From Pirellula sp. SH-Sr6A (GTDB lineage Bacteria > Planctomycetota > Planctomycetia > Pirellulales > Pirellulaceae), in the NCBI RefSeq assembly GCF_001610875.1, contig NZ_CP011272.1, positions 4,197,988-4,261,987 of the forward strand: a DNA stretch of 64,000 bases. The letters run 5' to 3'. The position numbers and the translations under genes are program-made. Positions 12,235 through 27,451 of the stretch are shown piece by piece. Below the pieces are notes generated by a model. The model was not told where the DNA came from. It ran no database searches and saw only the letters and a program-made list of their open reading frames with translations. Every line of letters starts with the position of its first letter. Positions within the stretch are counted from its first letter, which is position 1.

Positions 12235-12585
12235 GAAGGGTCCGGCAAGGCGGTACAAGTGGGAGGGAGGGCGTACAGCGAGGATCAATTCATTCTCTAG
12301 TCTACTCAAAAAGGCATCCCAATAGCAGGCACCCACCTTATCATCCCAATAGCAGGCACCCACCTTATCCAATCATCCCAAAGGCAAATAGCAGGCACCC
12401 ACCTTCTCAATAGCACCAAATCTGAGGCACCCATCTATCCCGATAGCATTCCCAATAGCAGGCACCCACCTTTTGGAGGGGGTGGGGTGGAAGTGGATGC
12501 GGAAGTGGCTTAATAGTAGGCACCCATCTTTTGAAGGGAGGGGATGGAGGGGGGACGGGGTTTTGGGGTGGAAGTGGGGGCTGAC

Positions 12586-12727
12586 GTGGCCTGGGGGGCT
12601 GGAATTCGGAGGGATTGGGCTCGGATGGGCGCAGCGGCGAACCGGACCCGAGAATGCAGGAGGGCGAAGAGAGGGAGATGGGAAAGAGGGGGACTGGAGA
12701 GCGAGTGTTCTGGCTCAGACTCCAAGG
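12586..12727 (+). repeat. 142-bp direct repeat, copy A
   Basis: This stretch and 13223-13363 are nearly identical (shared landmarks: TGGCCTGGGGGGCTGGAATT, GGATGGGCGCAGCGGCGAAC, GTTCTGGCTCAG). Each copy follows a GGCACCCATCTTTTG unit by some 35-60 bases, so the repeat and the core unit were probably copied together. It is G-rich and has no gene. Confidence 0.88.
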
Positions 12728-13070
12728 CTTAATAGTGGGCACCCATCTTTTGGAGGGAGAGTTCTCGCAAAGACGCCAAGACGCAACGAAACGCGATCAC
12801 CAAATCCGAGGCACCCACTCATTGCGGCGCAATCGCTCTTCAAATAGTAGGCACCCACCCAAACAAATAGTAGGCACTCACCTATTGCAGCGGTCGAAAG
12901 AACCCGTACACCGTATTGTTCGTGACTTTAATCTTTGGTCGCATCAGCCTAAGCCCTTCTCCCGATAGCAGGCACCCACCCATTCCCGATTCCGGCCCCG
13001 ATTCCCGATAGCAGGCACCCAGCGATTGGAGGGGGTAAATGAGAGGCACCCACCTAATTAAATAGAAGAC

Positions 13071-13152
13071 ACCCACCTAATGGGGGGGGGGGAGGTTTCT
13101 CGCCAAGGCGCCAAGACGCAAAAGGGGAGGGGCGGGGATTCGGGGCACCCAC
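13071..13152 (+). repeat. About 80-bp composite repeat, copy 1
   Basis: It reads from CACCCACCTAATGGGG through TTTCTCGC, AAGGCGCCAAGACGCAAAAG and GGGGCGGGGATTCGGGGCAC. It is almost identical to 16357-16435, which lies on the other side of the RAYT and the IS4 element. Shorter relatives (CTCGCAAAGACGCCAAGACG at 12765; CTCGCAACGGCGCCAAGACG at 16928) show the inner part is itself a dispersed repeat. Confidence 0.85.
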
Positions 13153-13222
13153 CTAACCAAGGCAGTCATTCCCAATAGAAGGCACCCATCTTTTGGGGGG
13201 GACGGAGGGGGGTGGGGCTGAA

Positions 13223-13363
13223 GTGGCCTGGGGGGCTGGAATTCGGGGGGATTGGGCTCGGATGGGCGCAGCGGCGAACCGGCCCCGAAGATGCAGGAGG
13301 GCGAAGTGAGGGAGATGGGAGAGCGGGAGACTGGAGAGCGGGGTTCTGGCTCAGGCTCCAAGG
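13223..13363 (+). repeat. 141-bp direct repeat, copy B
   Basis: Second copy of the segment at 12586-12727, with about a dozen differences. It ends shortly before the 3' end of the RAYT gene (13438). The 75 bases between hold a simple-sequence-like stretch (CTTGCTACTTGCTCCTTGCT). Confidence 0.88.
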
Positions 13364-13437
13364 TGGGGAACCGGAGCTAGCGGAGCCACTTGCTACTTGC
13401 TCCTTGCTACTGGCCAGTTGTCGCGAAGCGCTGCCCG

Positions 13438-14595
13438 CTAGGCGAAGCAAGCGGCAGCTTGGCGCTGGCCGCGACTCCAGCGCTTGTGGGTCCGCTCCGC
13501 GTCGGCGATCATCGCCTTGGGATTCCCACTACAACGGCTTGTCCCAAAGTACTTGGTGTAGTTCCACACCAAGTCGCACCACATGCTCGGTTCCACTCCC
13601 AAGCCGGTAAACAAGGGCTCTAAGGATTCAGGAACCGGACACACGCTCCCTGGCGGATGATCCTGCTGCTTAGCTGTCCATTGCAACAACTTCACATAGT
13701 CCTCCAGGTTCATCGTCAAGAACCCTCGGTTGCTGGCGCGCAGACCATTGGTGCTGGCCTGCGGATCAAACGCGTCCACTTCGGGGTCGAGCGTCAAAGG
13801 GGCCAACCAGGCGTCTCGGGGGACCAGTGGACGGGGGCCAGTCTGCTTACGAGCCTTCTTCTGCTCCTCGAGCGTCATCTTGGTCCTCCTCGCGATCGAT
13901 TCCTCCCGGGACAAGGGAATACGATCCAGAGCCGAGGATTCGATCATCGCTCCCTTGGCAGCCTCGATTCGATCAAACACCGACGTGTGCATCGAGAGTT
14001 CGATTGTTGCGGCCAGGTTCGCGCGCAAGACATTGAGATCCACATACATGGCGCAGGCCAGCAAACCCGCTTCATCGAGTAGCCGCTTCGCTTTGAATCG
14101 GCCATCCCAGAAGCAGCCACTGCATTCATCTTCTGCATTGGCTCGCCTGGCGATGACTTCTGCGAGAGAACGCATGAACCAAGAGATATCGGAGAGTCGG
14201 CTGCGATACTCTTGGATCTTCTCGGGATTGGCTACAGCGCTTCGGACATCCTCCTCGTTGGGCTCGGCCAAGACATCGAGGATTCGGGTGCCTGGAAAGA
14301 GTCTTAGCCAGCGGGTGGCGACTTCTACGTCGGACCAAGTCTTCACGACATCGGGGCGATTGCGGAGGATGACATGGAGGTGATTGGATAGGACGGCATA
14401 TTGGAGAACGTCGATACCGAAGACAGAGGCCAGGGACTCCAGGCGCTGGCGAATCCATTCTCTGCGGTGGGTGTAGTCTTTCTGGGTGAGCTGATCGAAG
14501 CCAGTAAGAAAGGCACGACGGACACAGCGATGGTAGCAATGAACAAGGCAGATTTCGTCGCTGACGAACTGCTCACAGCGGAGCGTGCTGGACAT
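13438..14595 (-). CDS. Y1/HUH transposase, REP-associated (RAYT) type
   Basis: 386 residues from ATG 14593-14595 (MSSTLRCEQF); an earlier in-frame TTG at 14610 is possible. The HUH pair is HLH (72-74) in QYAVLSNHLHVILR. The single catalytic tyrosine is probably Y184 in CAMYVDLNVLRANLA, preceded by the RAYT-typical CFWDGRFKAKRLLDE. It is longer than usual RAYTs (about 165-250 residues), with a C-terminal extension of some 170 residues rich in Lys/Arg/Trp. It sits alone between two blocks of the GGCACCCACC repeat, the arrangement expected of a transposase that mobilises short non-autonomous repeats. No IS200-type partner gene is present. Family confidence is high; the repeat-substrate link is inference. 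Confidence 0.87.
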   Translation of the reverse strand: MSSTLRCEQFVSDEICLVHCYHRCVRRAFLTGFDQLTQKDYTHRREWIRQRLESLASVFGIDVLQYAVLSNHLHVILRNRPDVVKTWSDVEVATRWLRLFPGTRILDVLAEPNEEDVRSAVANPEKIQEYRSRLSDISWFMRSLAEVIARRANAEDECSGCFWDGRFKAKRLLDEAGLLACAMYVDLNVLRANLAATIELSMHTSVFDRIEAAKGAMIESSALDRIPLSREESIARRTKMTLEEQKKARKQTGPRPLVPRDAWLAPLTLDPEVDAFDPQASTNGLRASNRGFLTMNLEDYVKLLQWTAKQQDHPPGSVCPVPESLEPLFTGLGVEPSMWCDLVWNYTKYFGTSRCSGNPKAMIADAERTHKRWSRGQRQAAACFA

Positions 14596-14679
14596 GGTGG
14601 ATTTCTCCAAGAAGTTCGGGGTGTAGATCCCATCACCTTATGGGATTGAAGGAAGGGATGCAACCAAATAGGTGAACTT

Positions 14680-14709
14680 TTTGGAGAGGGGTAAATGAGA
14701 GGCACCCAC
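14680..14709. repeat. GGCACCCACC repeat unit cut by IS4 (left half)
   Basis: The sequence GTAAATGAGAGGCACCCAC runs into the IS4 left end. Joined to CTAATGGGG beyond the IS4 right end, it rebuilds a unit identical over its core to the one at 13035-13060. The 10-bp AGGCACCCAC (14700-14709) is repeated at 16353-16362 as the likely target duplication. Confidence 0.8.
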
Positions 14710-14840
14710 GAATGGCACTGTAATCTCCAATGATCGCGCAGTTCCCCCTAGCGACAGAGCGGGAATTTTCTTTAGAATCTCGCTCGCCTTGAAGATTGTT
14801 CTGGCTATGAACCCATTTTCTTGGCTATGATTTTGATCGT

Positions 14841-14889
14841 CCCTCCTTGGTTAAGTTGCCTAAACATAAACCAAGGAGGGTTTTGTTTT
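14841..14889 (+). terminator. Intrinsic-terminator-like hairpin at the start of the IS4 transposase
   Basis: A perfect 12-bp stem (CCCTCCTTGGTT at 14841-14852, AACCAAGGAGGG at 14869-14880) with a 16-base loop, followed by TTTTGTTTTG. The candidate TTG start of the transposase (14888) falls inside the T-tract. A terminator here would block read-through from neighbouring genes into the transposase, a known way for IS elements to limit their own expression. Confidence 0.75.
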
Positions 14890-16318
14890 GGTCTCTATAC
14901 CACCAAGGCGATCTCAAGCCAATTTCAGCTTTGGAGATTCCATCAAGGCTTTCCTGCTGCAACCCGGACTGCCGTTTGCATCGATTCTTTGCGAGCAGCA
15001 CATCAGAAATGTTTTTCGCAAGCACGGTTGCACGATGAATGGGATCTATTCCACCGCAATTGTCTTGTGGGCGTTCATGTCGCAAATTATGCGTGATGGG
15101 AAAGAAGCCGCTTGCCAGTCCGCCGTCGCTCGTATTACGGCATTCTTTACTCTTCACGGGAAGTCAGCACCCGGGGCCGATACGGGGAACTACTGTCGCG
15201 CAAGAGCAAAGCTTCCCGAGGACGCTTTGAAAGAACTATGCCTTGGTGTTGCCTCTGAAGCGGAAGCCAAGGTGGAGTCCAAATGGCTCTGGAAGTCTAT
15301 GCATGCCAAGCTTATTGATGGATTTACTTTCAAAATGCCCGATACGCGAAAGAACCAGAAAGAGTATCCGCAGCATACTGCCCAAAAGCCAGGGATTGGT
15401 TTTCCTATTGCTCGTGTCTTGGCTGTGATGTCGTTGGCCACAGGTTGTTTGCTTGATGCAACGGTCGGTCCCTTCAGCGGAAAAGAAACGGGCGAAACCA
15501 GTCTTCTGCGTCGGTTGCTCAAAGGTTTTTCAGCGGGAGATATCGTGATTGCTGACCGCTTCTTTTGTAACTACTGGTTGATCGCGATGTTCATGAAATT
15601 GAACGTTCATGTTTGTTTTCGCAGGAAGAAGGGACACACAGATTTTCGAACTGGAAAGCGATTGGGTAAACAAGATCACTTGATTCAGTGGTATCGTCCC
15701 GCTCGTCCGGCCTGGATGAGCCACGAGATGTACCAATCCTTACCGCTCGTGATCGAATTACGGGAGTTGCGATATACGGTCGAAGCTCCGGGCCGTAAAT
15801 CAGGCCCGTTTATCATTGTGACAACATTGCTAGAGCACAAGGGTGACCAGGGTGTTAGCTATGAGGAGATATCCGATCTGTTTAGCTTTCGTTGGAATGC
15901 AGAACTTGACATCCGTTCTATCAAGACGTTTATGAATTTAAACTTTGTGAGATGCTTATCGCCCGAGATGGTCAGGCGAGAGTTATGGACGACGCTTCTT
16001 GCCTACAACTTGATTCGAACAACGATTTGCTCTGCCGCTTCGCTCTCTGGAAAGCGGCCGCGAGAGATCAGCTTCGTCTGTGCTAGCCAGTACATCCTAG
16101 CGAGTTGGCAGGAGGTGACGGCTCATCTTCGCGGCAAGCAACTTGAGCGTTACGCCAGATTTCTCCTCGAGCGGATTGCGAACTGTAAGGTTGGCAACCG
16201 TCCGGGGCGGATTGAACCGCGAGTTGTAAAGCGACGCCGCGACCAATACGCGCTGATGACCGAACCCAGAAAACAACTCCAAAAGCGACTCTATAAAGGC
16301 GATAACCGATTTGAATGA
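14888..16318 (+). CDS. IS4-family transposase
   Basis: DDE transposase, 476 residues. Candidates for the triad are D144 (LIDGFTFKMPDT), D223 (IVIADRFFCNYW) and E339. The IS4 signature Y-x2-R-x3-E-x6-K is present as F332-R335-E339-K346, with Phe in place of Tyr. PDTRKNQKEYPQ and GIGFPIARVLAV are further family landmarks. The start is uncertain: the open frame begins with TTG at 14888 within the terminator-like hairpin's T-tract, and the first ATG is not until 15035 (MNGIYSTAIVLWAF). Conserved-looking residues precede that ATG, so I kept the long form. The gene is intact. Confidence 0.92.
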   Translation: MVSIPPRRSQANFSFGDSIKAFLLQPGLPFASILCEQHIRNVFRKHGCTMNGIYSTAIVLWAFMSQIMRDGKEAACQSAVARITAFFTLHGKSAPGADTGNYCRARAKLPEDALKELCLGVASEAEAKVESKWLWKSMHAKLIDGFTFKMPDTRKNQKEYPQHTAQKPGIGFPIARVLAVMSLATGCLLDATVGPFSGKETGETSLLRRLLKGFSAGDIVIADRFFCNYWLIAMFMKLNVHVCFRRKKGHTDFRTGKRLGKQDHLIQWYRPARPAWMSHEMYQSLPLVIELRELRYTVEAPGRKSGPFIIVTTLLEHKGDQGVSYEEISDLFSFRWNAELDIRSIKTFMNLNFVRCLSPEMVRRELWTTLLAYNLIRTTICSAASLSGKRPREISFVCASQYILASWQEVTAHLRGKQLERYARFLLERIANCKVGNRPGRIEPRVVKRRRDQYALMTEPRKQLQKRLYKGDNRFE

Positions 16319-16352
16319 AACGACTTACGCAAATCGATTACAGTGCCATTCA

Positions 16353-17092
16353 AGGCACCCACCTAATGGGGGGGAGGGTTTCTCGCGAAGGCGCCAAGAC
16401 GCAAAAGGGGAGGGGCGGGGATTCGGGGCACCCACTTAATGGGGCGGAAATAGCGGAAATAGGAGGCGCCCACCTTTTGGGGGGCGTAGACGCATCGGCA
16501 TTAGGACACCATCGAAGAGTGAAACTGTGTGGATCCAAGGCGGACCATGGTCGCACCTTCCTCGATTAAATAAGTAAATAAGAGGCACCCACCTTTTGAG
16601 GGGGCGGGGATTCGAGGCACCCACCTAACGGGGGGAGATTGGGGGGAGGGAAATAGAAGGCACCCATCTAATGGAGCTGGTCTCTCGATTGAGTGGTATC
16701 AAGGTGGATCTTTCTAGGCAACTGTCTTTGTGTGTTCTTGCTGACGAGTCGTCCCGGCAAAGCGAAAAGAACAGCCGCACTTATCCACGCAAGAAACGCA
16801 TGCGTCAAACCGGCGAGCCGAACATAAAGCCCATTAACGACCAGCTTCGATCGCTCGCAAACAAAATGCTCTCGCAAATCATTACCAGCGTTGTGTGGCA
16901 CCCATCCAACAGGATGGAGGGAGTTTTCTCGCAACGGCGCCAAGACGCAACACCTCAATAAGAGGCACCCACCTTTTGAGGGGGGAGTTGAATAGGAGAC
17001 ACCCACAATTTTTGCTCGATCAACGACCAGCTTCAATCGCTCGCAAACAACATGCTCTCGTAAATCATTACCAGCGTTGGGAGGCACCCATC
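16353..17092. repeat. Block 2 of the GGCACCCA(C/T)C repeat family (10 units)
   Basis: Core units start at 16354, 16427, 16465 (GGCGCCCACC), 16584, 16616, 16659, 16897, 16964, 16998 (GACACCCACA) and 17083, all in the orientation of block 1. Between them lie a second copy of the 80-bp composite repeat (16357-16435) and a paired 75-bp repeat. No gene was recognised. The open frame at 16671-16961 crosses repeat units and has no family features. Base composition is strongly G-rich on the plus strand around the units. Confidence 0.88.
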
Positions 17093-17096
17093 TAAT
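16836..17096 (+). repeat. Pair of about 75-bp direct repeats (16836-16910 and 17022-17096)
   Basis: Both copies read AACGACCAGCTTC, ATCGCTCGCAAACAA, ATGCTCTCG, AAATCATTACCAGCGTT and then run into a GGCACCCATC unit. They differ at only a few bases. The tail CACCCATCTAATGGAGCTG also occurs at 16661-16679. Their origin is unknown; they may be remnants of a copied gene end. Confidence 0.8.
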
Positions 17097-17184
17097 GGAG
17101 CTGATTCGGGCCAGGGGAGCTTACTAACCTTGATTGATGTCGCTTTGGAAAATGCTCAATACAAGTTATAAGGGCTGTTTTTTT

Positions 17185-17248: not shown

Positions 17249-17890
17249 CTAGTAAATCAATCCGTGGCGGATTCCGAATTCCATCAAATCTGATTTCGAA
17301 GCAAGGTTGAGTTTGGTCATCATGCGCGATCGATACGACTCGATCGATTTTACACCAACACGCAATTGGTCTGCGATGGCCTGATTCGTGTATCCCCGCA
17401 ACAAGAGTCCGAGAACTTCTTTCTCTCGTTGACTGAGGTCTTCCAATGGATCTTTCTCTGGAGCTTGACTGGATGCTCTTTCATGGGTCTCGGCTGCAAT
17501 TCCCAAATTGATATAGAGCTTTCCGTCCATCACCGATCGCATTGCATTGAGGAGGTCGACATCGGCTACCGATTTAACGATGTACCCGTGCGCACCGCTT
17601 GCAAGCATCTTTCTTACTATTTCTCGATCATCGTGCATCGTCACAACAAGTATCTTGCTCTTCGCATTTTGGTATCGAAGATGGTTGATCGTCTGCGATG
17701 GTTCTCCACCAGGCATGGAAAGATCGAAGAGAATCAGATCGGGTTGCAAATTCTGGGCTGCTTGGATCGTTTCGCTTGCCGATCCCGTCTCCCCTACGAT
17801 CTCGAAGTCCCTCTGGGTTTCGATAAGTAGTCGAATACCTGCCCGCACCAAGGCATGATCGTCTGCCAGTAGCACTTGCGTTTGCGTCAC
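17249..17890 (-). CDS. NarL/FixJ-type response regulator
   Basis: 213 residues. Receiver domain (about 1-120) with the acidic pocket D10-D11 and phospho-acceptor D56 (LILFDLSMPGG), and the conserved lysine in GYIVKSVADVD. A LuxR/GerE helix-turn-helix (about 148-205) follows: LSQREKEVLGLLLRGYTNQA and KSIESYRSRMMTKL. The start is GTG 17890, overlapping the histidine kinase stop by 4 bp (GTGA), so translation is coupled. It is the last gene of a leftward operon that also holds YceI and two methyltransferases. Regulation of the divergent polyketide locus is a reasonable guess from position only. Confidence 0.94.
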   Translation of the reverse strand: MTQTQVLLADDHALVRAGIRLLIETQRDFEIVGETGSASETIQAAQNLQPDLILFDLSMPGGEPSQTINHLRYQNAKSKILVVTMHDDREIVRKMLASGAHGYIVKSVADVDLLNAMRSVMDGKLYINLGIAAETHERASSQAPEKDPLEDLSQREKEVLGLLLRGYTNQAIADQLRVGVKSIESYRSRMMTKLNLASKSDLMEFGIRHGLIY

Positions 17891-18780
17891 GATGATACGT
17901 CCTCTGTGCGAGCGGGTAGGACCGCATGAACAGTAGTCCCTTTTTCGGAACTCAAGACCTCCACCTGCCCTCCCACGGACATGACTCGCTCGCGAATGCT
18001 AATGAGGCCATTTCCGGATGCCGTCGGTAGCGCCCGAGAAAGAGCCATGCCGATACCATCGTCTTGCACACGGACGTGAAGCTCTTGCTGATCATTGGAC
18101 AACTCTACGCGAATGTGTGCGGCGTTTGCATGCTTGATCGCATTCGCCAGCCCTTCTTGAACAATTCGATACACCGTTGTGGCGTAGTTGCGTTCGAACG
18201 AGATGGTATCCATTCCCTTGAATGCCGTCGAGATAATTGCTTTGGAGGATGGCTGCATATCCCGAACCAACTTTTCAATCGCCTGCGACAACCCTAGAGT
18301 GTCGAGAACGGCAGGATGAAGTCCCGACACGAGTCGACGCAATTCAACGAGGATATCGGCTCCGGTTTTTCGGACTTCCGATAGTTCACTGCGAATTTCG
18401 GCGGACTGCGGTGATTCCTCCATAGCGCGGAGGTGGAGGAGTACGCTGGTGATCGATTGCCCGATTCCGTCGTGTAATTCCTGCCGAAGCCGCTGCCGCT
18501 CGGATTCTTGCGCGAACATGGACCGACGCAAAAAGAGCATGCGGCTTTGTGCAAGCTGCTGGATGGGTCGGATCATCCAAAACCAAAGAGCAGGTGCTAA
18601 AAGAAGGGTCAGCAGGCAGGAGTCGATGATTGCTTCGAAGACCACGCTGCTACCGATTGGGAGGATGTACGGCAGGAGCGACATCACGACGAACTCCGCC
18701 CCAAAGGAGAGCAACAGGACGATCGCGTAAAGTTTAAGGGGCTTAACCGGGTACGGGGTCAGGTCGAGCCTATCGGTCAT
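17887..18780 (-). CDS. Membrane sensor histidine kinase, NarX/HisKA_3 type
   Basis: 297 residues. Two membrane segments (about 18-40 and 48-70) with only a short loop between them, so there is no real periplasmic sensor. The HisKA_3 dimerisation helix has phospho-acceptor H103 (LRQELHDGIGQSI), and the HATPase domain has the N-box YRIVQEGLANAIKHANA and a DDGIGM motif. It overlaps its response regulator by 4 bp and lies 59 bp after the ICMT-like gene. The signal may be sensed in the membrane itself, for example lipid or membrane state. That is inference from the missing sensor domain. Confidence 0.92.
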   Translation of the reverse strand: MTDRLDLTPYPVKPLKLYAIVLLLSFGAEFVVMSLLPYILPIGSSVVFEAIIDSCLLTLLLAPALWFWMIRPIQQLAQSRMLFLRRSMFAQESERQRLRQELHDGIGQSITSVLLHLRAMEESPQSAEIRSELSEVRKTGADILVELRRLVSGLHPAVLDTLGLSQAIEKLVRDMQPSSKAIISTAFKGMDTISFERNYATTVYRIVQEGLANAIKHANAAHIRVELSNDQQELHVRVQDDGIGMALSRALPTASGNGLISIRERVMSVGGQVEVLSSEKGTTVHAVLPARTEDVSS

Positions 18781-18839
18781 GTTTGAGACCGCGATGGCAG
18801 ATTGGGAGCAGAGTCATGTTCCGAAAGGTTCTATGCGAA

Positions 18840-19577
18840 TTACGATTCGGTTTTCATCGTCGATGGTAGTTTCCGCAATGAACCGAAACCGATCAAGGGG
18901 AATCCGACGACTCGCGTTCCATATTCCACATACGGTTGCCCTATATAACGAATCAATCGCTGATCTTTGAAGTAGCTACCCAGATAGATGTAGAAAGTCC
19001 AAACCGTCGTCAGGATTGCGTGATCCAAGGTCATCTGGGGAGTGAACCAGATCAACCCAAGGAAACTCATATAGACAGGGTGCCGCATCCACTTAAAGGC
19101 TCCGCGGGTAACAAATTGTCGCTGGGGTTGTTTCTCTCCTCGGAGCCAATACCACCAAGGAGTCAATCCCGTCTGATAGCCAAGCCCCGTTAACCAAAGA
19201 CTGTAAAAAAGCGCCGCCCACGAAAGGTAAAAAAGCCCTAGAACGACAGACTCGCTAGCTCCGTGCAGATTCCAGATGTAGGTGTCACTGCGCCCCCAAA
19301 AGTGAAACAGGACCAGCAAACTAACGCAGGTCACCGAGCAGTGAACACATCCAATCCAAGCGGCAGGGAGGTAAACTTTGATCCGCTTTTGAACCGGTGG
19401 TGCCAACAACAGGCTGTGTGGCAAAGCGAATCCGATTGCAAGCACCAAATCCGTCAACCACCAGGAGGCGAAGCCCTGTTCGGTCCCATATCGGAGGAAG
19501 AGAAAAAGAAAAACAACCGTGTAGAGAAACAGCAATTGTGTCCCAATTCCGAAAAGCATCCCTGCCAAACGTATCAT
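18840..19577 (-). CDS. Membrane methyltransferase of the ICMT / NnrU-MddA superfamily
   Basis: 245 residues with five or six membrane segments. The C-terminal half has the isoprenylcysteine-methyltransferase-like signature: TRGAFKWMRHPVYMSFLGLI followed by the terminal EYGTRVVGFPL, as in NnrU and MddA (methanethiol methyltransferase). It overlaps the preceding methyltransferase gene by 4 bp (ATGA). ICMT-like proteins also accompany bacterial type III polyketide synthases (Streptomyces SrsB, Bacillus YpbQ/BpsB), where they O-methylate alkylresorcinols or alkylpyrones. That makes the nearby type III PKS a possible partner. An MddA-like role is the main alternative. Confidence 0.75.
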   Translation of the reverse strand: MIRLAGMLFGIGTQLLFLYTVVFLFLFLRYGTEQGFASWWLTDLVLAIGFALPHSLLLAPPVQKRIKVYLPAAWIGCVHCSVTCVSLLVLFHFWGRSDTYIWNLHGASESVVLGLFYLSWAALFYSLWLTGLGYQTGLTPWWYWLRGEKQPQRQFVTRGAFKWMRHPVYMSFLGLIWFTPQMTLDHAILTTVWTFYIYLGSYFKDQRLIRYIGQPYVEYGTRVVGFPLIGFGSLRKLPSTMKTES

Positions 19578-20410
19578 CCGACCTTCTCCGCGACAAAGTA
19601 TCCATACTCCATGGCTCCACTTCGATACGCATTGAGAATGGCATCAAAATGGTTCAGAAACAGCGTGTGGTTACGGCCAAGTAGTTTGGCAATCAGACGC
19701 ACACCCGATTGTTCGACACGGCGTTTGCAAATCTCCCAAGTACGTTCGACATTGCGAGTCCACAGACCTTGGTGCACCACGCGCATACCTGCTTGTTCAA
19801 ACCATTGTACGTAGTCGTCTTGGGTACCGAGCGATGGGCAGAACATCCCCTCACACACTTTTACGACTTGCGAAACACGATCGGAATCCAAAGGTGGTGA
19901 GCCCGCTAACCATGCGCACAATGCAAATCTCCCACCAGGCTTAAGCCAGCTTGCAGCCCGTTTAAAAAAAGCTGGCTTATCGAACAAGTGCTCCGTGCAC
20001 TCGATGCTCCATACATAGTCAGCCGACTGCGCGTCGAAGTGGATGGATTCCGCGTCGCTACAGCGGAATTTGGGTCTGTTGTGAAACGAACGGCCCAGGC
20101 ACGCGAGGGTTGCCCAATGCTTCTGTACCGGGCTGAGCGTAACCCCTGTAACGTGGCAATCTCTCTTTCGAGCCAACCAAATAGAAGAACCACCCATTCC
20201 ACAGCCAATGTCGTAGACGACGGAGCCATTCCGTATTTCCGCGAGCCCGGCGAGGCGCTCTGTCAATGCGAGTTGCGCTGTGGCGGGTGGTTCGCTCCCC
20301 TCCCAGTAGCCGTGATGGATGTGTGGCCCCCATAAGAGTCGATAGAACAAGGTGCTCACATCGTAGTGACTTTGGATCACTCGCTTCTCAATCGCTGGAC
20401 ACTCAATCAT
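19574..20410 (-). CDS. Class I SAM-dependent methyltransferase, tocopherol/sterol methyltransferase-like
   Basis: 278 residues from ATG 20408-20410 (MIECPAIEKRV). This start gives a 4-bp ATGA overlap with the YceI gene; a longer frame starts at 20428. The N-terminus HYDVSTLFYRLLWGPHIHHG resembles gamma-tocopherol and cyclopropane/sterol methyltransferases. The SAM motif is VVYDIGCGMGGSSIWLA, then VTGVTLSPVQ. The acceptor is probably a small lipid-like or aromatic molecule. Next to an ICMT-like enzyme and across from a type III PKS locus, it could methylate the polyketide product. Substrate unproven. Confidence 0.85.
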   Translation of the reverse strand: MIECPAIEKRVIQSHYDVSTLFYRLLWGPHIHHGYWEGSEPPATAQLALTERLAGLAEIRNGSVVYDIGCGMGGSSIWLARKRDCHVTGVTLSPVQKHWATLACLGRSFHNRPKFRCSDAESIHFDAQSADYVWSIECTEHLFDKPAFFKRAASWLKPGGRFALCAWLAGSPPLDSDRVSQVVKVCEGMFCPSLGTQDDYVQWFEQAGMRVVHQGLWTRNVERTWEICKRRVEQSGVRLIAKLLGRNHTLFLNHFDAILNAYRSGAMEYGYFVAEKVG

Positions 20411-21147
20411 GATGCTGGAACGACCCAAAGATCCCCGTAGATTCGAAGCTCATCTTTGACTCCGACAGTCCCCATCATTTTGCTGAATGGTTTGATTCTG
20501 TAGTCCGACTGCAAAATGCGAAATGCGCCTCGGACATGCAGCCAACCATCTTTGAGCTCGGCATCGCATACCGCCTGGATAGGTCGTGTTGTTTTATGCA
20601 ACGTGAAGTTACCCTCCAGTAAATACTCTGGCAGATTCCGTTTCGAGGTCTTTCCTGTCGGTTTCCATTTGACGTTTTTTAACGTCGCTTCAGGATAGTG
20701 TTCGACCGAGAGTATTTCGAGACCAAGCATGTTCTCATTCACCTTCTTTCTTGTTTCTTCATCAATTTCACTTTGTATTGACAGGTATTTCCTGGCAAGA
20801 GGCGTATCCGCATCAAAGCTTTTCATATCAAAGGTAATGGACGATTTTTTGTCATCATTAATAACTAGATGTCCATCCTTTAGTCGCCCCTCGACTGCGT
20901 GTTGATGGCCTACCAAACCTGCCTTGTCTACAAAAATGAAAACGCGGCTGAATTCGGTGTTGATTTCCCCTGCTACCCAATTTTTTTCAGTCCCGTTCTG
21001 CGCGGTCGCGTGGGAAACAAACCAACCTAGCAGCAGAAGGACAGACATTGTGATCTTGCACGCCAAGACTGATCGCTTCTGGGTTAATGACTCCTTGAGC
21101 CATGCGATCTGCTTGCAAGTGTTTGCGAATAATAGATTTGCTCTCAC
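20407..21147 (-). CDS. Secreted YceI-family lipid-binding protein
   Basis: 246 residues from a GTG at 21147 with AAGGA upstream. An ATG at 21046-21048 would give a more standard signal peptide (MSVLLLLGWFVSHATAQ). After cleavage near AQNG comes the YceI lipocalin-like barrel: NTEFSRVFIFVDKAGLVGHQ, ITFDMKSFDAD, VEHYPEATLKNVKW and GNFTLHKTTRPI. YceI proteins bind polyisoprenoid-type lipids in the periplasm. It is the first gene of the leftward operon and stands back to back with an MMPL exporter. A role in carrying a hydrophobic product after export is plausible. Confidence 0.87.
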   Translation of the reverse strand: MRANLLFANTCKQIAWLKESLTQKRSVLACKITMSVLLLLGWFVSHATAQNGTEKNWVAGEINTEFSRVFIFVDKAGLVGHQHAVEGRLKDGHLVINDDKKSSITFDMKSFDADTPLARKYLSIQSEIDEETRKKVNENMLGLEILSVEHYPEATLKNVKWKPTGKTSKRNLPEYLLEGNFTLHKTTRPIQAVCDAELKDGWLHVRGAFRILQSDYRIKPFSKMMGTVGVKDELRIYGDLWVVPAS

Positions 21148-21268
21148 CTCGAAATCCTTTCGTCGTTAGGATGAGACTGGTTGCAATGGAGCGCCTGATT
21201 GCAAAAGAAGTATGCGGATCACGTTAGCATGCAGTCGGCATCATTGACTAGTCGGAAAAGCAGAGACC
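21148..21268. promoter_or_regulatory. Divergent promoter region between the YceI and MMPL operons
   Basis: The 121 bp between two divergent translation starts, both GTG, must hold promoters in both directions. I see no clear sigma-70 boxes or operator palindrome. It is the natural place for the response regulator encoded in the leftward operon to bind. Confidence 0.45.
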
Positions 21269-23545
21269 GTGAATTTTTTTTGTCATCGTACTTGGATCGT
21301 CGCGCTCATTGCGATGGTTGCGATCCCCTTTGCACTGAATGCCACGGTTCACTTGCCCATAGGATCGGCTGGGGTGCATGAATGGCTTCCCTCCTCCCGT
21401 CCAGAAAAAAGAGCGTACGATCGCTTTCAGCAACAATTCGGCAGCGATCAGACATTATTGGTTTCTTGGGACGGTGCGACTATCGATGATCCTCGCATTC
21501 CGGCACTGGCATCCAAGCTTCAAGATTCCGTGGTGGATGATGGTTTCGTGAGTTCGATGGTGACGACTCCCGAGGTGTTGGCGACTCTCGAAGGAGAACC
21601 ACTGCGGCTTCGCCCCGAGCAGGCGAGAGAGCGGTTGCAGGGAACGTTGCTAGGTGCTGATGGGACGTGTGCGTTGTTTCTCATCGCTTCGCCTACTGGT
21701 GTCGATCATCACGCGGAATTGATCCGGCGCGTGCGACGGGCCGCAGACGAGACGGAGTCTTTAGGGAGTGATTCGCTCCGCATGGTAGGCTCCTTGTACG
21801 AGTCATACGCAATCGATGTCGCATCGGCAAAGAGTCTATCGCAGTTGGTGATCCCATCTTCGATCGCTGCGGTTGTTATGGCTTGCTTGTTGTTAAGAAG
21901 TTGGCGTTACGCATTGATTGCATTCCTCTTGGCAACGGCTGGGCAACTGGTATCGGTCTCCTTGGTCTACTACGGTGGATTTCAATTCAGTGCGGTGCTC
22001 ATCGTTTTGCCGACGTTGATCTTTATGCTGACCCTCTCGGGGGCCATTCACCTTGTGAACTACCAGCGAGATTCCAGACAGCCCACCAAACAGGGAGCGG
22101 GATGGGAAGCGGTCAGACATGGATTTTGGCCGTGTATCCTTTCATCAGGGACAACCATGCTCGGCATGGGGTCGCTGCTCGTGAGCGAGCTTTCCCCAGT
22201 TCGGGAGTTTGGAGGGTTGTCTGCAGTTGCCCTTGGGATAGCGACCGTTATGTTGCTCGTTTACTTTCCGTATTTGCTCGGCGTTGCCAGGCCCTCCCAC
22301 CCGTCACAAGATACGCCTCAAGATACGCCTCAAGATACGCCTCAAGATACGTCGCAAGATACCGGGCGACCATCGCTGTTCTTGTTCCTCGCCATTCGCT
22401 ACCTACGATGGCAGTCGCAGAACGCGGCGTGGATTTCTACAGTCGGAATGTTGTTGCTTTGTCTTTCATTGGAGGGAGTGACACAGTTGAATGCATCGAC
22501 GAAGTTTTGCGATCTATTCCCACCTTCGGACCCCGTGTCGCAGGATATGGATTGGTTTGAAGATCATCTCGGGCCGATTGCTTCGGTGGAGATTGTACTT
22601 CGATTTGACGCAAACAGTTCAGCCAATTCTTTAGAGCAAGCTCGATTGGTTTCGATAGTGCAACGAGAAGTCGACGAGCTCTCGGAGGTTGGTGCGACCC
22701 TCTCCGCGGCGACCTTTCTACCGCAAATCGGGGAGGCTAGGGGGGTGCGAGGTGCTGCCCAACGGGGTGTCTACAAGCAGAGGATCGAAGGGGCATTTTC
22801 GGAATTACAGGAGCGTGGCTTCCTGCATGATTCTCCCACGGCGACTTCGTGGCGGTTGGCGACGAAAGTCTCTGCGTTAACATCGATGAGTTATCGAGAG
22901 GCGACCGATCGATTGGAGGCCGCTGTCCATAAGTGTCTCGACCAGGAAAAATCCGATGCGGTCGTCACGGTTACGGGTTTAGCACCCGTGATGCATGAAA
23001 CACAAGTAGCGTTACTATCCGATTTGGGTTACAGCTTTCTTTCCGCGTTTGCATTGATCACGCCGGTGATGATGTGGATCGTGCGGAGTGTGAAGGGTGG
23101 ATTGTTGGTGATGGTGCCGAACGTACTTCCGGTAACCATGGCGTTTGGAGCGATGGGGTGGCTCGGTTATTCGCTGGACATTGCCGGGATCTTGACTGCA
23201 AGTATCGCACTTGGAATTGCCGTGGACGATACACTTCATTTCATTTGTTGGTATCGCAAGGAGAAAGAGGCTGGTTACTCTGCTGCCGACGCGGTCCAAC
23301 GCACATTCGTCGCGTGTGCGCAAGCGATGATCCAAACGACGGTGATCGCATGTTGCGCGATGCTTCCTTTCTTGTTTGCGGATTTCAACCCAACCAGACA
23401 GTTCGCGTTCTTGATGATTTCGATCCTATCCCTCGCTTTGGTAGGGGACCTTTGTTTGCTCCCTGCCTTGTTACAGACGCGATTCGGTCATTGGGTGGCG
23501 CCCAATCGAAAACCTGATTCCTTATCTCCTGCGGTCGAGGCGTAG
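21269..23545 (+). CDS. RND/MMPL-family exporter
   Basis: 758 residues from a GTG start. It has the two-fold MMPL design: a membrane helix at the N-terminus, a periplasmic loop, five or six membrane segments (about 190-350), a second helix and loop, then five membrane segments to the end. Landmarks include MLTLSGAIHLVNYQ and ASIALGIAVDDTLHFICWYR with the conserved acidic pair in the membrane. Between the halves (about 347-366) lies a QDTP repeat coded by five 12-bp direct repeats. It is first in an operon with a methyltransferase, a flavoprotein and a type III PKS, so lipid or phenolic-lipid export is the likely job. Confidence 0.9.
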   Translation: MNFFCHRTWIVALIAMVAIPFALNATVHLPIGSAGVHEWLPSSRPEKRAYDRFQQQFGSDQTLLVSWDGATIDDPRIPALASKLQDSVVDDGFVSSMVTTPEVLATLEGEPLRLRPEQARERLQGTLLGADGTCALFLIASPTGVDHHAELIRRVRRAADETESLGSDSLRMVGSLYESYAIDVASAKSLSQLVIPSSIAAVVMACLLLRSWRYALIAFLLATAGQLVSVSLVYYGGFQFSAVLIVLPTLIFMLTLSGAIHLVNYQRDSRQPTKQGAGWEAVRHGFWPCILSSGTTMLGMGSLLVSELSPVREFGGLSAVALGIATVMLLVYFPYLLGVARPSHPSQDTPQDTPQDTPQDTSQDTGRPSLFLFLAIRYLRWQSQNAAWISTVGMLLLCLSLEGVTQLNASTKFCDLFPPSDPVSQDMDWFEDHLGPIASVEIVLRFDANSSANSLEQARLVSIVQREVDELSEVGATLSAATFLPQIGEARGVRGAAQRGVYKQRIEGAFSELQERGFLHDSPTATSWRLATKVSALTSMSYREATDRLEAAVHKCLDQEKSDAVVTVTGLAPVMHETQVALLSDLGYSFLSAFALITPVMMWIVRSVKGGLLVMVPNVLPVTMAFGAMGWLGYSLDIAGILTASIALGIAVDDTLHFICWYRKEKEAGYSAADAVQRTFVACAQAMIQTTVIACCAMLPFLFADFNPTRQFAFLMISILSLALVGDLCLLPALLQTRFGHWVAPNRKPDSLSPAVEA
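22307..22366 (+). repeat. In-frame 12-bp tandem repeat (five copies) in the MMPL gene
   Basis: CAAGATACGCCT three times, then CAAGATACGTCG and CAAGATACCGGG. It encodes QDTP/QDTS units in the cytoplasmic linker between the two halves of the transporter. The period is a multiple of three, so copy number can change without breaking the frame. Confidence 0.92.
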
Positions 23546-24274
23546 ATGCATACACGTCACCTAGTCCCCGAGCTAATGGACGATCCAGAGCTGGACATCG
23601 CCGAACACCAATTGGCTTTGGCTGGTCTGAGACTCATCAATCAATGGAGTGGAACGGCGAAGCGCATCGCCGCCGAAATCAACGCATTGATCAAGATGAG
23701 GAAGCTAAAACATTGCCGTATCCTCGACTTGGGGTGCGGGAGCGGCGACATCGCTTGCGACGTTGCAAGTCGGATAGCAAATCACCATCCCATATCGGTA
23801 ACCGGATGGGACTTTAGCGAAACGGCCGTCGCGCAAGCGACCGCAAATCGCGATCGAAGACTTGCCCCAACGAAGCATGCATGCGAAGTTCGATTCGAAT
23901 GTCGCAATGCGTTAGATACGAGCTTAGCGGCGCAGAAACCTCGACCGTTTGACATCGTCTACTGCTCGCTGTTTTTGCATCACTTTACCGATGGGCAATC
24001 GTTGGAACTTTTAGCTCGGATGGCATCGCTCGCGGAGCATGCTTTGGTCGTGGACGATTTGATCCGATCGAGAAGAGGTTGGCTGCTAGCTCAATCGGGG
24101 TGCCGATTGCTCTCCCGTTCTCCGATCGTTCATTTCGATGGTCCGCAATCGGTTCGAGCCGCGTTCACTATCTCGGAAATTCGCGAGATCGCTGCGGATG
24201 CTGGACTGCATCCCATCTCCGTTCGAAGATGTTGGCCAATGCGATTCCTTTTAAGATGGGAGCGGACTGAGTAA
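23546..24274 (+). CDS. Class I SAM-dependent methyltransferase
   Basis: 242 residues. SAM-binding motif I is CRILDLGCGSGDIACDVA, motif II VTGWDFSETAVAQA, and a later FDIVYCSLFLHHF segment is typical of UbiE-like small-molecule methyltransferases. It starts immediately after the MMPL stop and shares one base with the next gene (TAATG). Methyltransferases of this kind commonly stand beside type III PKS and FAD oxidoreductase genes in bacteria. A ring C- or O-methyl transfer on the polyketide is therefore the favoured role. Confidence 0.88.
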   Translation: MHTRHLVPELMDDPELDIAEHQLALAGLRLINQWSGTAKRIAAEINALIKMRKLKHCRILDLGCGSGDIACDVASRIANHHPISVTGWDFSETAVAQATANRDRRLAPTKHACEVRFECRNALDTSLAAQKPRPFDIVYCSLFLHHFTDGQSLELLARMASLAEHALVVDDLIRSRRGWLLAQSGCRLLSRSPIVHFDGPQSVRAAFTISEIREIAADAGLHPISVRRCWPMRFLLRWERTE

Positions 24275-25473
24275 TGGAGGCAGTCACCCACGATTCAAAA
24301 TCGCATCCAATTTTGGAAACTGATTGGGACTGCGTCGTGATCGGTGCTGGAGTGGCGGGCCTTAGTTTTGCGATCCGAGCGGCTCGAGGCGGGCATCGGG
24401 TTTTGATTCTGGAGGCAAAGACGTTTCCACGTGAAAAAGTATGTGGTGGCTGTCTGAACCGTCGTGCTCAAGGGCACTTGAAAGAACTAGGAATCCTGGG
24501 ACGGGTCATGGCGCTAGGAACTCCAATCGAGGAACTCGTCGTTGATTGCCAAGGGACTTTGTCTTCGTGGAAAGTGCCCACCATGCTTAGCATTCGACGT
24601 TCGACACTCGATCAAGTGTTGGCAGAGACAGCCATTGCTGCGGGATGCGAGATTCGCTGGAACACACGCGGAACAGTCGTGGAGGCAGGCGAATCGGGAC
24701 CAGCGACTGTGAAATTGCAGAAGGAAGGGGAGACACGTGCGGCAACATTTGTTCACGCAGGGATGGTGGCCGTCGCGGCTGGACTGACCCGTTCTCCTAT
24801 TCAAAAGGATCCGAGATGGAATCAACAGATCTCAGATCGTTCTAGGATTGGTGTACACGCTCTTTGTCATTTATCGGATTTGCATTCTCAGCTTGGAAGC
24901 TGCGAATGGTTGCGATCGCTCGTCGCCCAAAGGCAGCTTCATATGCTCGTGGGCAAGTCCGGATATTTGGGGATTTGTCTCTCGGATGACGGATATGTTG
25001 ATTTCGCTGCAGCCATCGATCCCGATAGAATTGAGAACCGGCAATGTATCGGGGGGACGGTCGATTCCATTCTTCAAGATTGCCAGCGCGATAGCCTCTT
25101 TGGGAGACTCCATACAGAGTGGTTCGCAACTCCACCCCTGACCCGTAGCTCTGCCGTGGTGGGGATCGGACGAACATTCTTAGTTGGAGATGCGCTCGGT
25201 TACGTCGAGCCATTCACGGGAGAAGGCATGTCCTGGGCGTTCGCTAGTGCGAAGCGATTGGCTGCATTGTTTGGTTCTTCTCAAGAAGAAGGATGGATGC
25301 AATTAGCCAAGCATTGGAACGACTGGGCGCGGCAGGAACGCTCGACGAAGACTTGGGTGGCGACATGGGTTGCTGCGCAGGCGCGAAAACCCAATCGATG
25401 CAAATGGATTTTGCGAGGACTGGATGTATTCCCTCCAGTTCGTCGCTTTCTCGTCAGAAAGGCAATGCAATGA
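24274..25473 (+). CDS. FAD-dependent oxidoreductase, geranylgeranyl reductase / aromatic hydroxylase type
   Basis: 399 residues. The Rossmann motif CVVIGAGVAGLSFAIRAARG binds FAD, followed by FPREKVCGGCLNRRAQ. The second FAD motif is FLVGDALGYVEPFTGEGMSW, as in geranylgeranyl reductase-like enzymes and in flavoprotein hydroxylases. In the Streptomyces srs operon a flavoprotein (SrsC) hydroxylates the alkylresorcinol made by a type III PKS. The same gene set here makes that a fair model. The stop overlaps the PKS start (ATGA). Whether it reduces double bonds or hydroxylates a ring cannot be told from sequence. Confidence 0.88.
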   Translation: MEAVTHDSKSHPILETDWDCVVIGAGVAGLSFAIRAARGGHRVLILEAKTFPREKVCGGCLNRRAQGHLKELGILGRVMALGTPIEELVVDCQGTLSSWKVPTMLSIRRSTLDQVLAETAIAAGCEIRWNTRGTVVEAGESGPATVKLQKEGETRAATFVHAGMVAVAAGLTRSPIQKDPRWNQQISDRSRIGVHALCHLSDLHSQLGSCEWLRSLVAQRQLHMLVGKSGYLGICLSDDGYVDFAAAIDPDRIENRQCIGGTVDSILQDCQRDSLFGRLHTEWFATPPLTRSSAVVGIGRTFLVGDALGYVEPFTGEGMSWAFASAKRLAALFGSSQEEGWMQLAKHWNDWARQERSTKTWVATWVAAQARKPNRCKWILRGLDVFPPVRRFLVRKAMQ

Positions 25474-26594
25474 CGGCGTGTCTGCGGTCGTTTCGAACAC
25501 AGCTCCCTTCGATCGGAATCGATCAGGAGGATGCCGCGCGTCTCGCGAGCAGTCTGGAGATCAGTTTGCGGTGGAATCATGCAATACCTGCTTTGTATCG
25601 AAAGTCGGGAGTCGGTCATCGTTACTCCGTTTTGCTTCATGATCAAGCCGAATCGGATTCAGTTCCCCAGGACTTCTATTTACCTAGGGCCGAATCGACG
25701 AATGGCCCATCGACTAGTCAACGCATGGCAGCCTATGAACAGTTCGCGCCTCCGTTGTTGGAAGCTGCGTGTCGAAACGCGATGGAAGATGCCGGTATCC
25801 ATCCCACGGAAATACACAACTTGATCACAGTTTCGTGCACTGGATTTTGCGCGCCTGGTATCGATCATCGGCTTATGGGTGCGATCGGAATGAGTCCCCA
25901 CATTCACCGAACGCACGTTGGGTTTATGGGGTGCCACGGTATGATCAACGGAATGCGAACAGCGGATGCGATTGTTCGAGCCGATCCGAACGCGATTGCG
26001 CTCGTCGGCGCCGTCGAACTTTGTAGCCTTCATCAGCAATACACGGACGACCCACAGCAACTCGTCGCCAATGCGTTGTTTGCGGATGGAGCAGCAGGAG
26101 TAATGGTGGTCCATCGTAATCACGCCGTGACGGCCGCTGACAAGGGGTGGGAGATTTTATCGACCCATTCGATTTGGATTCCTGATACCGATCGAGCCAT
26201 GTCGTGGAAGATCAGCGACCATGGATTTGTCATGCAGCTTTCCCCCGAAGTGCCAAGCGTACTCCGAAACAGCTTGCATGAACCGGTTTCCCATTGGCTT
26301 TCTTCGCACGGACTGTCGATCGAGCAGATCGATCACTGGGCAATCCACCCAGGAGGCCCTCGCATTTTGGATGCTTGCGAGGCCGCTTTTCGATTGCCGG
26401 CCAGCAAGGTGGAGGACTCGCGAGCAGTCCTTCGGGAATGCGGAAACATGTCTTCCCCAACCGTGATTTTCATTCTCGAACGAATCACCGCTGGCTTGGA
26501 TCCCGCTTCTACCTCCCCGGTTTATTGTCTTATGATTGCGTTCGGCCCTGGGCTTCATGCGGAGCTCATGCTTCTCCGAAAGGTTCCCGGCTAA
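25470..26594 (+). CDS. Type III polyketide synthase (chalcone/alkylresorcinol synthase family)
   Basis: 374 residues from ATG 25470-25472, chosen for the 4-bp overlap with the flavoprotein stop; the open frame runs upstream to 25293. The catalytic triad is C155 (GFMGCHGMIN), H293 (WAIHPGGPRI) and N326 (RECGNMSSPT). SCTGF (122-126) and the FGPG loop near the C-terminus complete the family pattern. The length is standard. These homodimeric cytosolic enzymes extend a CoA starter with malonyl-CoA and cyclise it to resorcinols, pyrones or similar. Partners in the operon are an exporter, a methyltransferase and a flavoprotein. The starter is unknown; a fatty acyl chain would suit the YceI and MMPL neighbours. 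Confidence 0.93.
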   Translation: MTACLRSFRTQLPSIGIDQEDAARLASSLEISLRWNHAIPALYRKSGVGHRYSVLLHDQAESDSVPQDFYLPRAESTNGPSTSQRMAAYEQFAPPLLEAACRNAMEDAGIHPTEIHNLITVSCTGFCAPGIDHRLMGAIGMSPHIHRTHVGFMGCHGMINGMRTADAIVRADPNAIALVGAVELCSLHQQYTDDPQQLVANALFADGAAGVMVVHRNHAVTAADKGWEILSTHSIWIPDTDRAMSWKISDHGFVMQLSPEVPSVLRNSLHEPVSHWLSSHGLSIEQIDHWAIHPGGPRILDACEAAFRLPASKVEDSRAVLRECGNMSSPTVIFILERITAGLDPASTSPVYCLMIAFGPGLHAELMLLRKVPG

Positions 26595-27451
26595 CGCAAG
26601 CTCTTATTTTTTCGGACGTAAGGTTTTTGGATGGGAACGAGGAGTTCTCCTTGGAAGGTTTCGCAGATCGAAAGCCTTCTCAAACCAATTTTGACGTATT
26701 CGCCCGATTGTTCGATTCCGATCGATCGGCGTCCCAAGCGTTTTGCGACGGCGCTCGCGGTGAAGGTCCCAGAGAACAGATCGAGAATGCAATCTCCAGG
26801 ATGACTGCTAGCGAGAAGCATCCGTTCCAAAAGTGCTTCCGGTTTCTGAGTTGGGTGATGTTCGTATTCGTTCATACGATAGCGAACACGGGGGAACTCC
26901 CAAACGTTCCCTGGAACTTTAGAGCTATTGTAGGGAACGGGGGGAGATTTGCGATAATCGATCAAGCGTCGGACCGAGCCCGTGGGGGCATCCACACGTA
27001 CCGCATCGGCGTTGAAGGTGTATTGATTCGGATTCATAACACAGTGCAATATCGGTTCGTACATCGAACCGAATTTCCGCTTCGCTTGAACTCCCGAGCT
27101 ATCGTAATGCCACACGATTCTCGCCAGCACTGTGGATCGCTTGCGGAGAAACAAATCGAGATACGGCATCGCTTGTGTGCTGGACATGACGTAGAGCGAT
27201 CCTGTTGGCTTTAGTTTTCGGAGCCCGAGTGCCAGCCATTGATAGCACCAATCCGCGTAGGCTTCGTCGGATTCCCAACGGTCCAAAAACGAATCGTATT
27301 GCTTGCCGATGTTATAGGGTGGGTCCGCGAAAAGAAGATCGATGGATTGATCGGGAACACACTCCTCCATGACTTTCAGGACATCTCCCCAATAGATGGC
27401 ATGCTCCTCGTCTCGGCTGAATCGTTCGATGGTCTTGTGATCATCCCGCAA
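26591..27451 (-). CDS. yhdJ: Beta-class DNA adenine methyltransferase, YhdJ-like
   Basis: 286 residues. Motif IV is LLFADPPYNIGKQYD (DPPY at 43-46) and motif I comes later as DLFSGTFTASAVAK, the beta-class order. VWHYDSSGVQAKRKFGSMYE, DYRKSPPVPYNSSKVPGN and HHPTQKPEALLERM match E. coli YhdJ (M.EcoKII) closely along the length. YhdJ modifies the second A of ATGCAT. No restriction endonuclease gene lies beside it, so it is an orphan methyltransferase. The gene ends convergently with the type III PKS, sharing 4 bp (CTAA). Specificity is inferred from similarity only. Confidence 0.9.
   Translation of the reverse strand: MRDDHKTIERFSRDEEHAIYWGDVLKVMEECVPDQSIDLLFADPPYNIGKQYDSFLDRWESDEAYADWCYQWLALGLRKLKPTGSLYVMSSTQAMPYLDLFLRKRSTVLARIVWHYDSSGVQAKRKFGSMYEPILHCVMNPNQYTFNADAVRVDAPTGSVRRLIDYRKSPPVPYNSSKVPGNVWEFPRVRYRMNEYEHHPTQKPEALLERMLLASSHPGDCILDLFSGTFTASAVAKRLGRRSIGIEQSGEYVKIGLRRLSICETFQGELLVPIQKPYVRKNKSLR

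Follow-up and report, generated by a model that had tools for sequence, protein, structure and literature searches.

Two divergent operons around a type III polyketide synthase

We analysed a locus of Pirellula sp. SH-Sr6A, whose genome is a single contig of 6.53 Mb (NZ_CP011272.1). The whole stretch of DNA under study, positions 4,197,988 to 4,261,987 of that contig, is referred to as the window (64,000 nt), and locus coordinates are given within it. According to the coordinates of the open reading frames (ORFs) and domain searches, positions 17249-26594 hold two compact operons that diverge from each other and comprise nine ORFs in all, the rightward one ending in a type III polyketide synthase (PKS) gene and the leftward one beginning with the gene of a YceI-type lipocalin (Table 1). 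An original prediction, made from the DNA letters, had described the same nine genes; all ORFs were recovered, with domains mostly above the Pfam cut-offs and the ICMT-like protein below its own. In the rightward operon, the MMPL and methyltransferase genes abut without a spacer (0 nt), the methyltransferase and FAD genes overlap by 1 nt, and the FAD and PKS genes by 4 nt. The leftward genes overlap by 22 nt (YceI/CMAS), 4 nt (CMAS/ICMT) and 4 nt (histidine kinase/response regulator), with a gap of 59 nt between the ICMT and kinase genes. Beyond the PKS gene, the locus is delimited by a convergent DNA adenine methyltransferase gene (26591-27451, minus strand). For the PKS we took 25470 as the probable start instead of the longest-ORF start at 25293, because the end coordinate of the original prediction and the homologues suggest it.

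Table 1. Features of the divergent locus, with the basis of each assignment
Feature	Coordinates	Strand	Basis
Type III PKS (HidC-like, presumed alkylresorcinol synthase), 374 aa	25470..26594	+	Pfam Chal_sti_synt_N/C above cut-off
FAD-dependent oxidoreductase, HidB-like / geranylgeranyl-reductase superfamily	24274..25473	+	Pfam FAD_binding_3 above cut-off
S-adenosylmethionine (SAM) methyltransferase, HidA-like	23546..24274	+	Pfam Methyltransf_25 above cut-off
MMPL-family RND transporter, 758 aa, first gene of the PKS operon in the window	21269..23545	+	Pfam MMPL
Divergent intergenic region, 121 nt, presumed promoter region of both operons	21148..21268	.	Coordinates only
YceI-type lipocalin, N-terminal hydrophobic segment	20407..21147	-	Pfam YceI, AlphaFold2 (AF2) model
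CMAS/RebM-like SAM methyltransferase, without membrane segment	19574..20428	-	Pfam CMAS (also Methyltransf_11)
ICMT/MddA-like membrane methyltransferase	18840..19577	-	NCBIfam MddA and Pfam ICMT, both under cut-off; hydrophobic segments
HisKA_3 histidine kinase; neighbour outside the conserved set	17887..18780	-	Pfam HisKA_3 and HATPase_c above cut-off
NarL/GerE-type response regulator; neighbour outside the conserved set	17249..17890	-	Pfam Response_reg and GerE above cut-off

The methyltransferase, FAD oxidoreductase and PKS genes lie in this order on one strand, and the same order is found in relatives. Among 80 named PKS loci, many of them on short contigs, 75 contained a HidB-like and 71 a HidA-like homologue. 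The FAD enzyme scored 109.6 bits against TIGR02032, below the cut-off of 158.8, and matched only remote flavoproteins among solved structures. We aligned the PKS with those of 100 loci, a set in which six genomes, and some more, occur twice (same contigs from two sources). The catalytic triad C155, H293 and N326 was invariant in all 101 aligned sequences, as was C185; position 124 was Thr in 63 and Ser in 38, and position 128 Ala in 89 and Ser in 12. T124, A128 and C185 align to T144, A148 and C205 of PKS18, which we take to line the acyl tunnel of that enzyme. The small residues kept at these positions are consistent with the long-chain phenolic lipid that had been proposed for the locus. A quick tree of 86 PKSs, with many weak branches and neither an outgroup nor a characterised enzyme, placed four cyanobacterial enzymes in hidC position among the planctomycetal ones.

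The core operon of methyltransferase, FAD enzyme and PKS is of an already known type. Milke et al. (2024, PMC10896814) found 58 of 96 planctomycetal type III PKS genes in a tricistronic methyltransferase-oxidoreductase-PKS operon, a relative of the hidABC operon of Cyanobium. Four of six planctomycetal PKSs expressed in C. glutamicum yielded alkylresorcinols (pentadecyl- and heptadecylresorcinols), and co-expression of the G. maris methyltransferase and oxidoreductase added one more methyl group, probably bound to carbon (PMC10896814). The heterologous host gave the core compounds and not the suspected fully decorated ones (PMC10896814).

Proteins of the added module

The YceI protein has a hydrophobic segment at residues 26-45 and scored 47.6 bits against Pfam YceI (cut-off 23.7). 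Because its sequence gave only weak matches to solved structures (best 1wub, E 0.13), we turned to a fold model. The best Foldseek matches of the AF2 model (mean predicted local distance difference test score, pLDDT, 87.9) were TT1927b, BcnA, PA0423 and E. coli YceI, and all 18 matches at E≤0.001 were YceI or polyisoprenoid-binding proteins, among them 7bwl, which is classed as such in PMC9113575. Reported structures of this family include barrels occupied by octaprenylphosphate, octaprenylphenol or ubiquinone-8 (PMC9113575); octaprenylphenol and ubiquinone-8 are head-and-tail molecules, as are alkylresorcinols. Although the window protein shares the fold, the Pfam family and the N-terminal export-type segment with TT1927b, BcnA and E. 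coli YceI, it belongs to a divergent, PKS-linked subfamily. YceI proteins of the module reach about 48-70 bits against the Pfam profile, compared with 73-172 for most others of the class and 50-58 for a few, among the matches listed. A second YceI protein of the same genome (G000:C1:3198473-3198937) scored 117 bits, nearer the profile, so that two YceI types coexist in this organism.

The CMAS-like protein scored 71.2 bits against Pfam CMAS. Its nearest solved sequence was 3bus (deposited as 'Methyltransferase' and, we presume, RebM), followed by MitM, with cyclopropane synthases ranking lower. A cyclopropane-synthase or mycolate-type role was rejected, given scores of 59.9 against a cut-off of 600 and 55.5 against 400 bits for the NCBIfam cyclopropane fatty acid (CFA) synthase models, and given that the nearest solved sequences are other methyltransferases. 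The ICMT-like protein lies just under the Pfam ICMT cut-off (22.8 vs 24 bits). Its sole NCBIfam match at E≤0.001 was the methanethiol S-methyltransferase MddA, at 85 bits vs a cut-off of 270, and no solved structure matched at E≤1; residues R165-H166-P167 and Y169 were kept in at least 95% of 20 aligned rows.

The MMPL protein scored 99.7 bits against Pfam MMPL (cut-off 20.5), and its AF2 model (pLDDT 83) has MmpL4 and MmpL5 as nearest solved folds, then HpnN, NPC1L1 and MmpL3, and thus looks like known lipid or efflux transporters. While it shares fold and Pfam family with the MMPL/HAE3 transporters (MmpL3/4/5, HpnN), it reaches no curated NCBIfam cut-off (TIGR00921, 128.9 vs 351.9; HpnN, 57.2 vs 751.85). 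Its gene contains an in-frame 12-bp tandem repeat of 4.7 copies (22307-22362), encoding DTPQ repeats in the central loop, where the model falls below pLDDT 50.

Distribution and gene neighbourhood across genomes

We examined co-occurrence in 198 genomes of the class Planctomycetia (completeness at least 90%), of which 130 carry a type III PKS. Orthologues were defined by more than 270 bits for CMAS (next lower match 157), more than 170 bits for ICMT (next lower 78) and a preset E≤1e-10 for divergent YceI. In one of the hit collections, matches with coverage below 60% or under the set bit scores were excluded. CMAS orthologues occurred in 22 genomes, each with a PKS (Fisher p 4.9e-5), ICMT orthologues in 24, again each with a PKS (p 1.8e-5), and divergent YceI in 27, with a PKS in 26 (p 7.6e-5). 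These three genes, often joined by MMPL, are here called the module; at least two of the three were found in 24 genomes from 15 genera and seven families, and all 24 carry a PKS; at the genus level, all 15 module genera fall among the 67 of 111 genera with a PKS (p 2.5e-4). As a control, YceI in general was present in 126 of the 198 genomes, and after removal of 12 genomes whose best match was of the weak, divergent type a PKS accompanied it in 77 of 114 (p 0.31), no more often than the background. The weaker matches left out comprised 13 genomes for CMAS (PKS in 12, G126 being without) and ten for ICMT (PKS in five; G053, G064, G092, G111 and G211 without). Since weaker homologues thus also occur in genomes lacking a PKS, the exclusivity holds for the orthologue groups and not for the wider families.

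Module and PKS lie within 12 kb of each other in 19 of the 24 genomes and on different contigs in five (G147, G168, G200, G224, G229). In these five, hidA, hidB and the PKS gene stand together elsewhere, and in G168 a second CMAS gene adjoins the PKS. The order YceI-CMAS-ICMT-MMPL without an adjacent PKS was seen in G200, G168 and G224. Near PKS-distant modules or lone YceI genes, Pfam searches of 20 of the neighbouring ORFs revealed no recurring partner pathway. A draw of 294 genomes across the phylum (at least 70% complete) gave a CMAS match at E≤1e-45 in seven, namely six of the class and G399, whose homologue (42%, outside the class) has no other module gene or PKS within 19.9 kb. Of 22 genomes reached through loci, the four cyanobacterial ones and 11 others not labelled Planctomycetia gave no CMAS match at E≤1e-20, and four of the remaining seven did. 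Locus L136 (Rhodopirellula maiorica SM1) shows a CMAS-like match in two overlapping stretches in different frames, with the type III PKS elsewhere (L088), which suggests that the module is decaying or that the assembly is faulty there.

Genes adjoining the planctomycetal PKS operon have been described as not conserved save in close relatives (PMC10896814). Contrary to this statement, the module recurs with the operon in a subset of genomes. In 20 extended PKS loci, 16 of them from the genus of the window, at least one of YceI, CMAS and ICMT was present in 16 and all three in 13; the 80 named loci contained YceI in 19, CMAS in 19, ICMT in 17 and MMPL in 10. The module takes four placements relative to the operon: divergent upstream (window, L054), collinear upstream (L094, L120), downstream antiparallel (L075, L102, L152) and split around it (L049, L066). 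The distantly related PKS operon of G065 also has the divergent arrangement. On the PKS tree, module presence, scored as any one of YceI, CMAS and ICMT, switches at least nine times over 42 labelled rows (25 present, 17 absent), the other 44 of 86 rows being left out as 'unknown' because their flanks are short. Of all members MMPL is the least constant, being the first gene of the PKS operon in the window and, in other loci, placed after the ICMT gene or missing from the vicinity. In the original prediction the two operons had been taken to belong together, and they do co-occur in other genomes, across families and gene orders.

The two-component genes behaved differently. At E≤1e-3, neither a histidine kinase nor a response regulator homologue was found in any of 31 ICMT-bearing loci, which represent 25 distinct genomes (six counted twice, with the same contigs from two sources) and extend 2.6-16 kb beyond the ICMT gene. 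Of seven further ICMT loci, G200 (L138) alone had a match at E≤1e-4; there (12044-14772), a HisKA kinase and a sigma-54 response regulator divergently flank a stand-alone YceI-CMAS-ICMT-MMPL module and are of another type than the window pair. Kinase matches occurred in two and a regulator match in one of the 80 named loci, all of which lack an ICMT gene where such a match was seen. We therefore dropped the kinase and regulator from the system, and the earlier proposal of a dedicated regulator by which the lipid is sensed is left unsupported.

To the left of the locus, at positions 12459-17101, a 21-nt repeat, RAGGCACCCACCTWWTGGGGG, occurs eleven times, always on the same strand (at most three mismatches; none in 100 shuffles). 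The copies lie on both sides of a 390-aa ORF (13438-14610, minus strand) that has no Pfam match and contains an HLHVI stretch resembling REP-associated tyrosine transposases. Genome-wide there are 97 copies at up to two mismatches, in clusters (reversed-pattern control, 0). In each of eleven further clusters all copies lie on one strand, and seven of these clusters hold the same ORF at 98-100% identity. Repeat and ORF together look like a recently active REPtron-like mobile element. A DDE-type transposase (Pfam DDE_Tnp_1, 14888-16318) is apparently inserted inside it, with near-identical whole or partial copies in four of the 11 other clusters.

A candidate phenolic-lipid system and its alternatives

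Because the module occurs almost only where PKS genes are present, core operon and module probably act together on one membrane lipid. We consider it rather probable that the seven genes form a phenolic-lipid system, in which a hierridin-type alkylresorcinol pathway is extended by methylation, periplasmic carriage and membrane extraction. The PKS would use three malonyl-CoA to extend a long fatty-acyl starter into a 5-alkylresorcinol, and the HidA-like methyltransferase and HidB-like flavoenzyme would methylate and oxidise the ring. Further methyl groups may be added by the CMAS/RebM-like and ICMT/MddA-like enzymes, the latter acting in the membrane. Within the periplasm the YceI lipocalin would bind the amphiphile, which the MMPL pump would extract from the inner membrane, the finished lipid reaching the outer membrane or the outside. 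From protein families, folds and nearest matches we infer the extra methylation, the carriage and the extraction; product, YceI ligand and transport direction are likewise putative. The exporter and lipid carrier named in the original prediction thus retain fitting families and folds, with functions that are predicted from family membership and modelled structure.

Several observations weigh against this reading. MMPL is linked in only 10 of the 80 named loci, and 12 of the 16 extended loci of the window's genus showed none next to the PKS. G056 carries divergent YceI without a PKS, the CMAS match contains one internal stop in five of the 22 CMAS genomes, and 106 of the 130 PKS genomes are without two or more of YceI, CMAS and ICMT. 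The CMAS and ICMT thresholds were fixed after the score gap was visible, and the co-occurrence tests treat genomes or genera as independent, ancestry being handled only by collapsing to genera. Deletion of the PKS in S. maiorica left growth and ampicillin tolerance unchanged, and no role was assigned to the two methyltransferases that, along with a lipid/isoprenoid-binding protein, precede the PKS of 'Saltatorellus ferox' (PMC10896814). Since the module is present in only 24 of the 130 PKS genomes, the pathway does not require it, and the module is best described as an optional extension.

The same proteins might serve retrieval, storage or redox cycling instead of export, YceI and MMPL shuttling a phenolic lipid or quinone with redox activity from membrane to membrane, to serve as an antioxidant or to carry electrons, a role proposed for the BcnA/YceI lipocalins. 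YceI proteins bind ubiquinone-8, and BcnA with cytochrome b561 counters lipid peroxyl radicals (PMC9113575); in M. tuberculosis, polyketide quinones carry electrons (cited in PMC10896814). In one case, a lone divergent YceI gene (G125, L145 9906-12166, without CMAS or ICMT) adjoins a di-haem oxidoreductase/cytochrome c ORF. However, no cytochrome is found among the module genes, the neighbours not having been searched systematically, and planctomycetal HidB has been given no role (PMC10896814). We regard this alternative as unlikely, if a serious contender. More speculatively, and in our view unlikely, the module could convert the planctomycetal hierridin pathway into a private lipoquinone system. 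A PKS-made polymethylated alkyl-(hydro)quinone would then travel with its own YceI carrier through the enlarged planctomycete periplasm and with its own MMPL between membranes, acting independently of menaquinone to shuttle electrons or to protect lipids from oxidation.

An ordinary hidABC-like operon might also just neighbour an independent YceI/methyltransferase operon for another lipid, held in place by inherited gene order. The absence of the module from most PKS genomes and the published conservation of flanking genes in close relatives only (PMC10896814) agree with this. Yet a PKS is present in 24 of 24 module genomes, including the five with the module on a different contig, and four placements with at least nine changes of presence over 42 rows are unlike retained synteny, which makes the explanation improbable. 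Finally, the system with its own two-component lipid sensor is very improbable: the window kinase and regulator genes are co-directional and close behind the ICMT gene, and in G200, too, a pair adjoins the stand-alone module, but homologues are absent from all 31 ICMT loci and the G200 pair, found in one of seven further loci, is of another type.

We return to the preferred phenolic-lipid system and its relation to known ones. The locus had been compared with srsABC of Streptomyces and with bpsAB of Bacillus, in which a type III PKS is accompanied by a methyltransferase; this pairing stands, but the parallel is less apt than that with the published planctomycetal hidABC-like operon, which had not been named. 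One srsB homologue, located beside a monooxygenase, carries the annotation isoprenylcysteine carboxyl methyltransferase (PMC6669644). In contrast, the ICMT-like gene of the window, below the Pfam cut-off, sits in a separate divergent operon, and the window has two more methyltransferases, YceI and MMPL. With the planctomycetal operon and cyanobacterial hidABC (hierridin) the locus shares gene order, PKS family and the expected alkylresorcinol core, and it differs from both by the added module. The main text of PMC10896814 makes no mention of YceI, MMPL, two-component or isoprenylcysteine, and passages of a paper on the cyanobacterial clusters (PMC8086630) make none of MMPL, YceI not having been searched there; a CMAS homologue was found in none of the four cyanobacterial genomes. 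Our literature search, outside which lay most subscription papers, figures and supplements, returned no paper pairing YceI with alkylresorcinol or type III polyketide synthase and none combining YceI, Planctomycet and polyketide. One printed hint is the 'S. ferox' operon with its two methyltransferases and its lipid/isoprenoid-binding protein (PMC10896814). The methylation-and-transport module otherwise appears new, and its proposed link to the operon has good comparative support.

The natural function of planctomycetal alkylresorcinols was called open in PMC10896814, and a 2025 review of planctomycetal metabolites lists the three-gene cluster and calls the function of its products unclear (PMC12078418). 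For a defined group of strains, the module provides named candidates for steps of decoration and transport that have so far been missing. With these candidate genes at hand, the question of natural function becomes testable.

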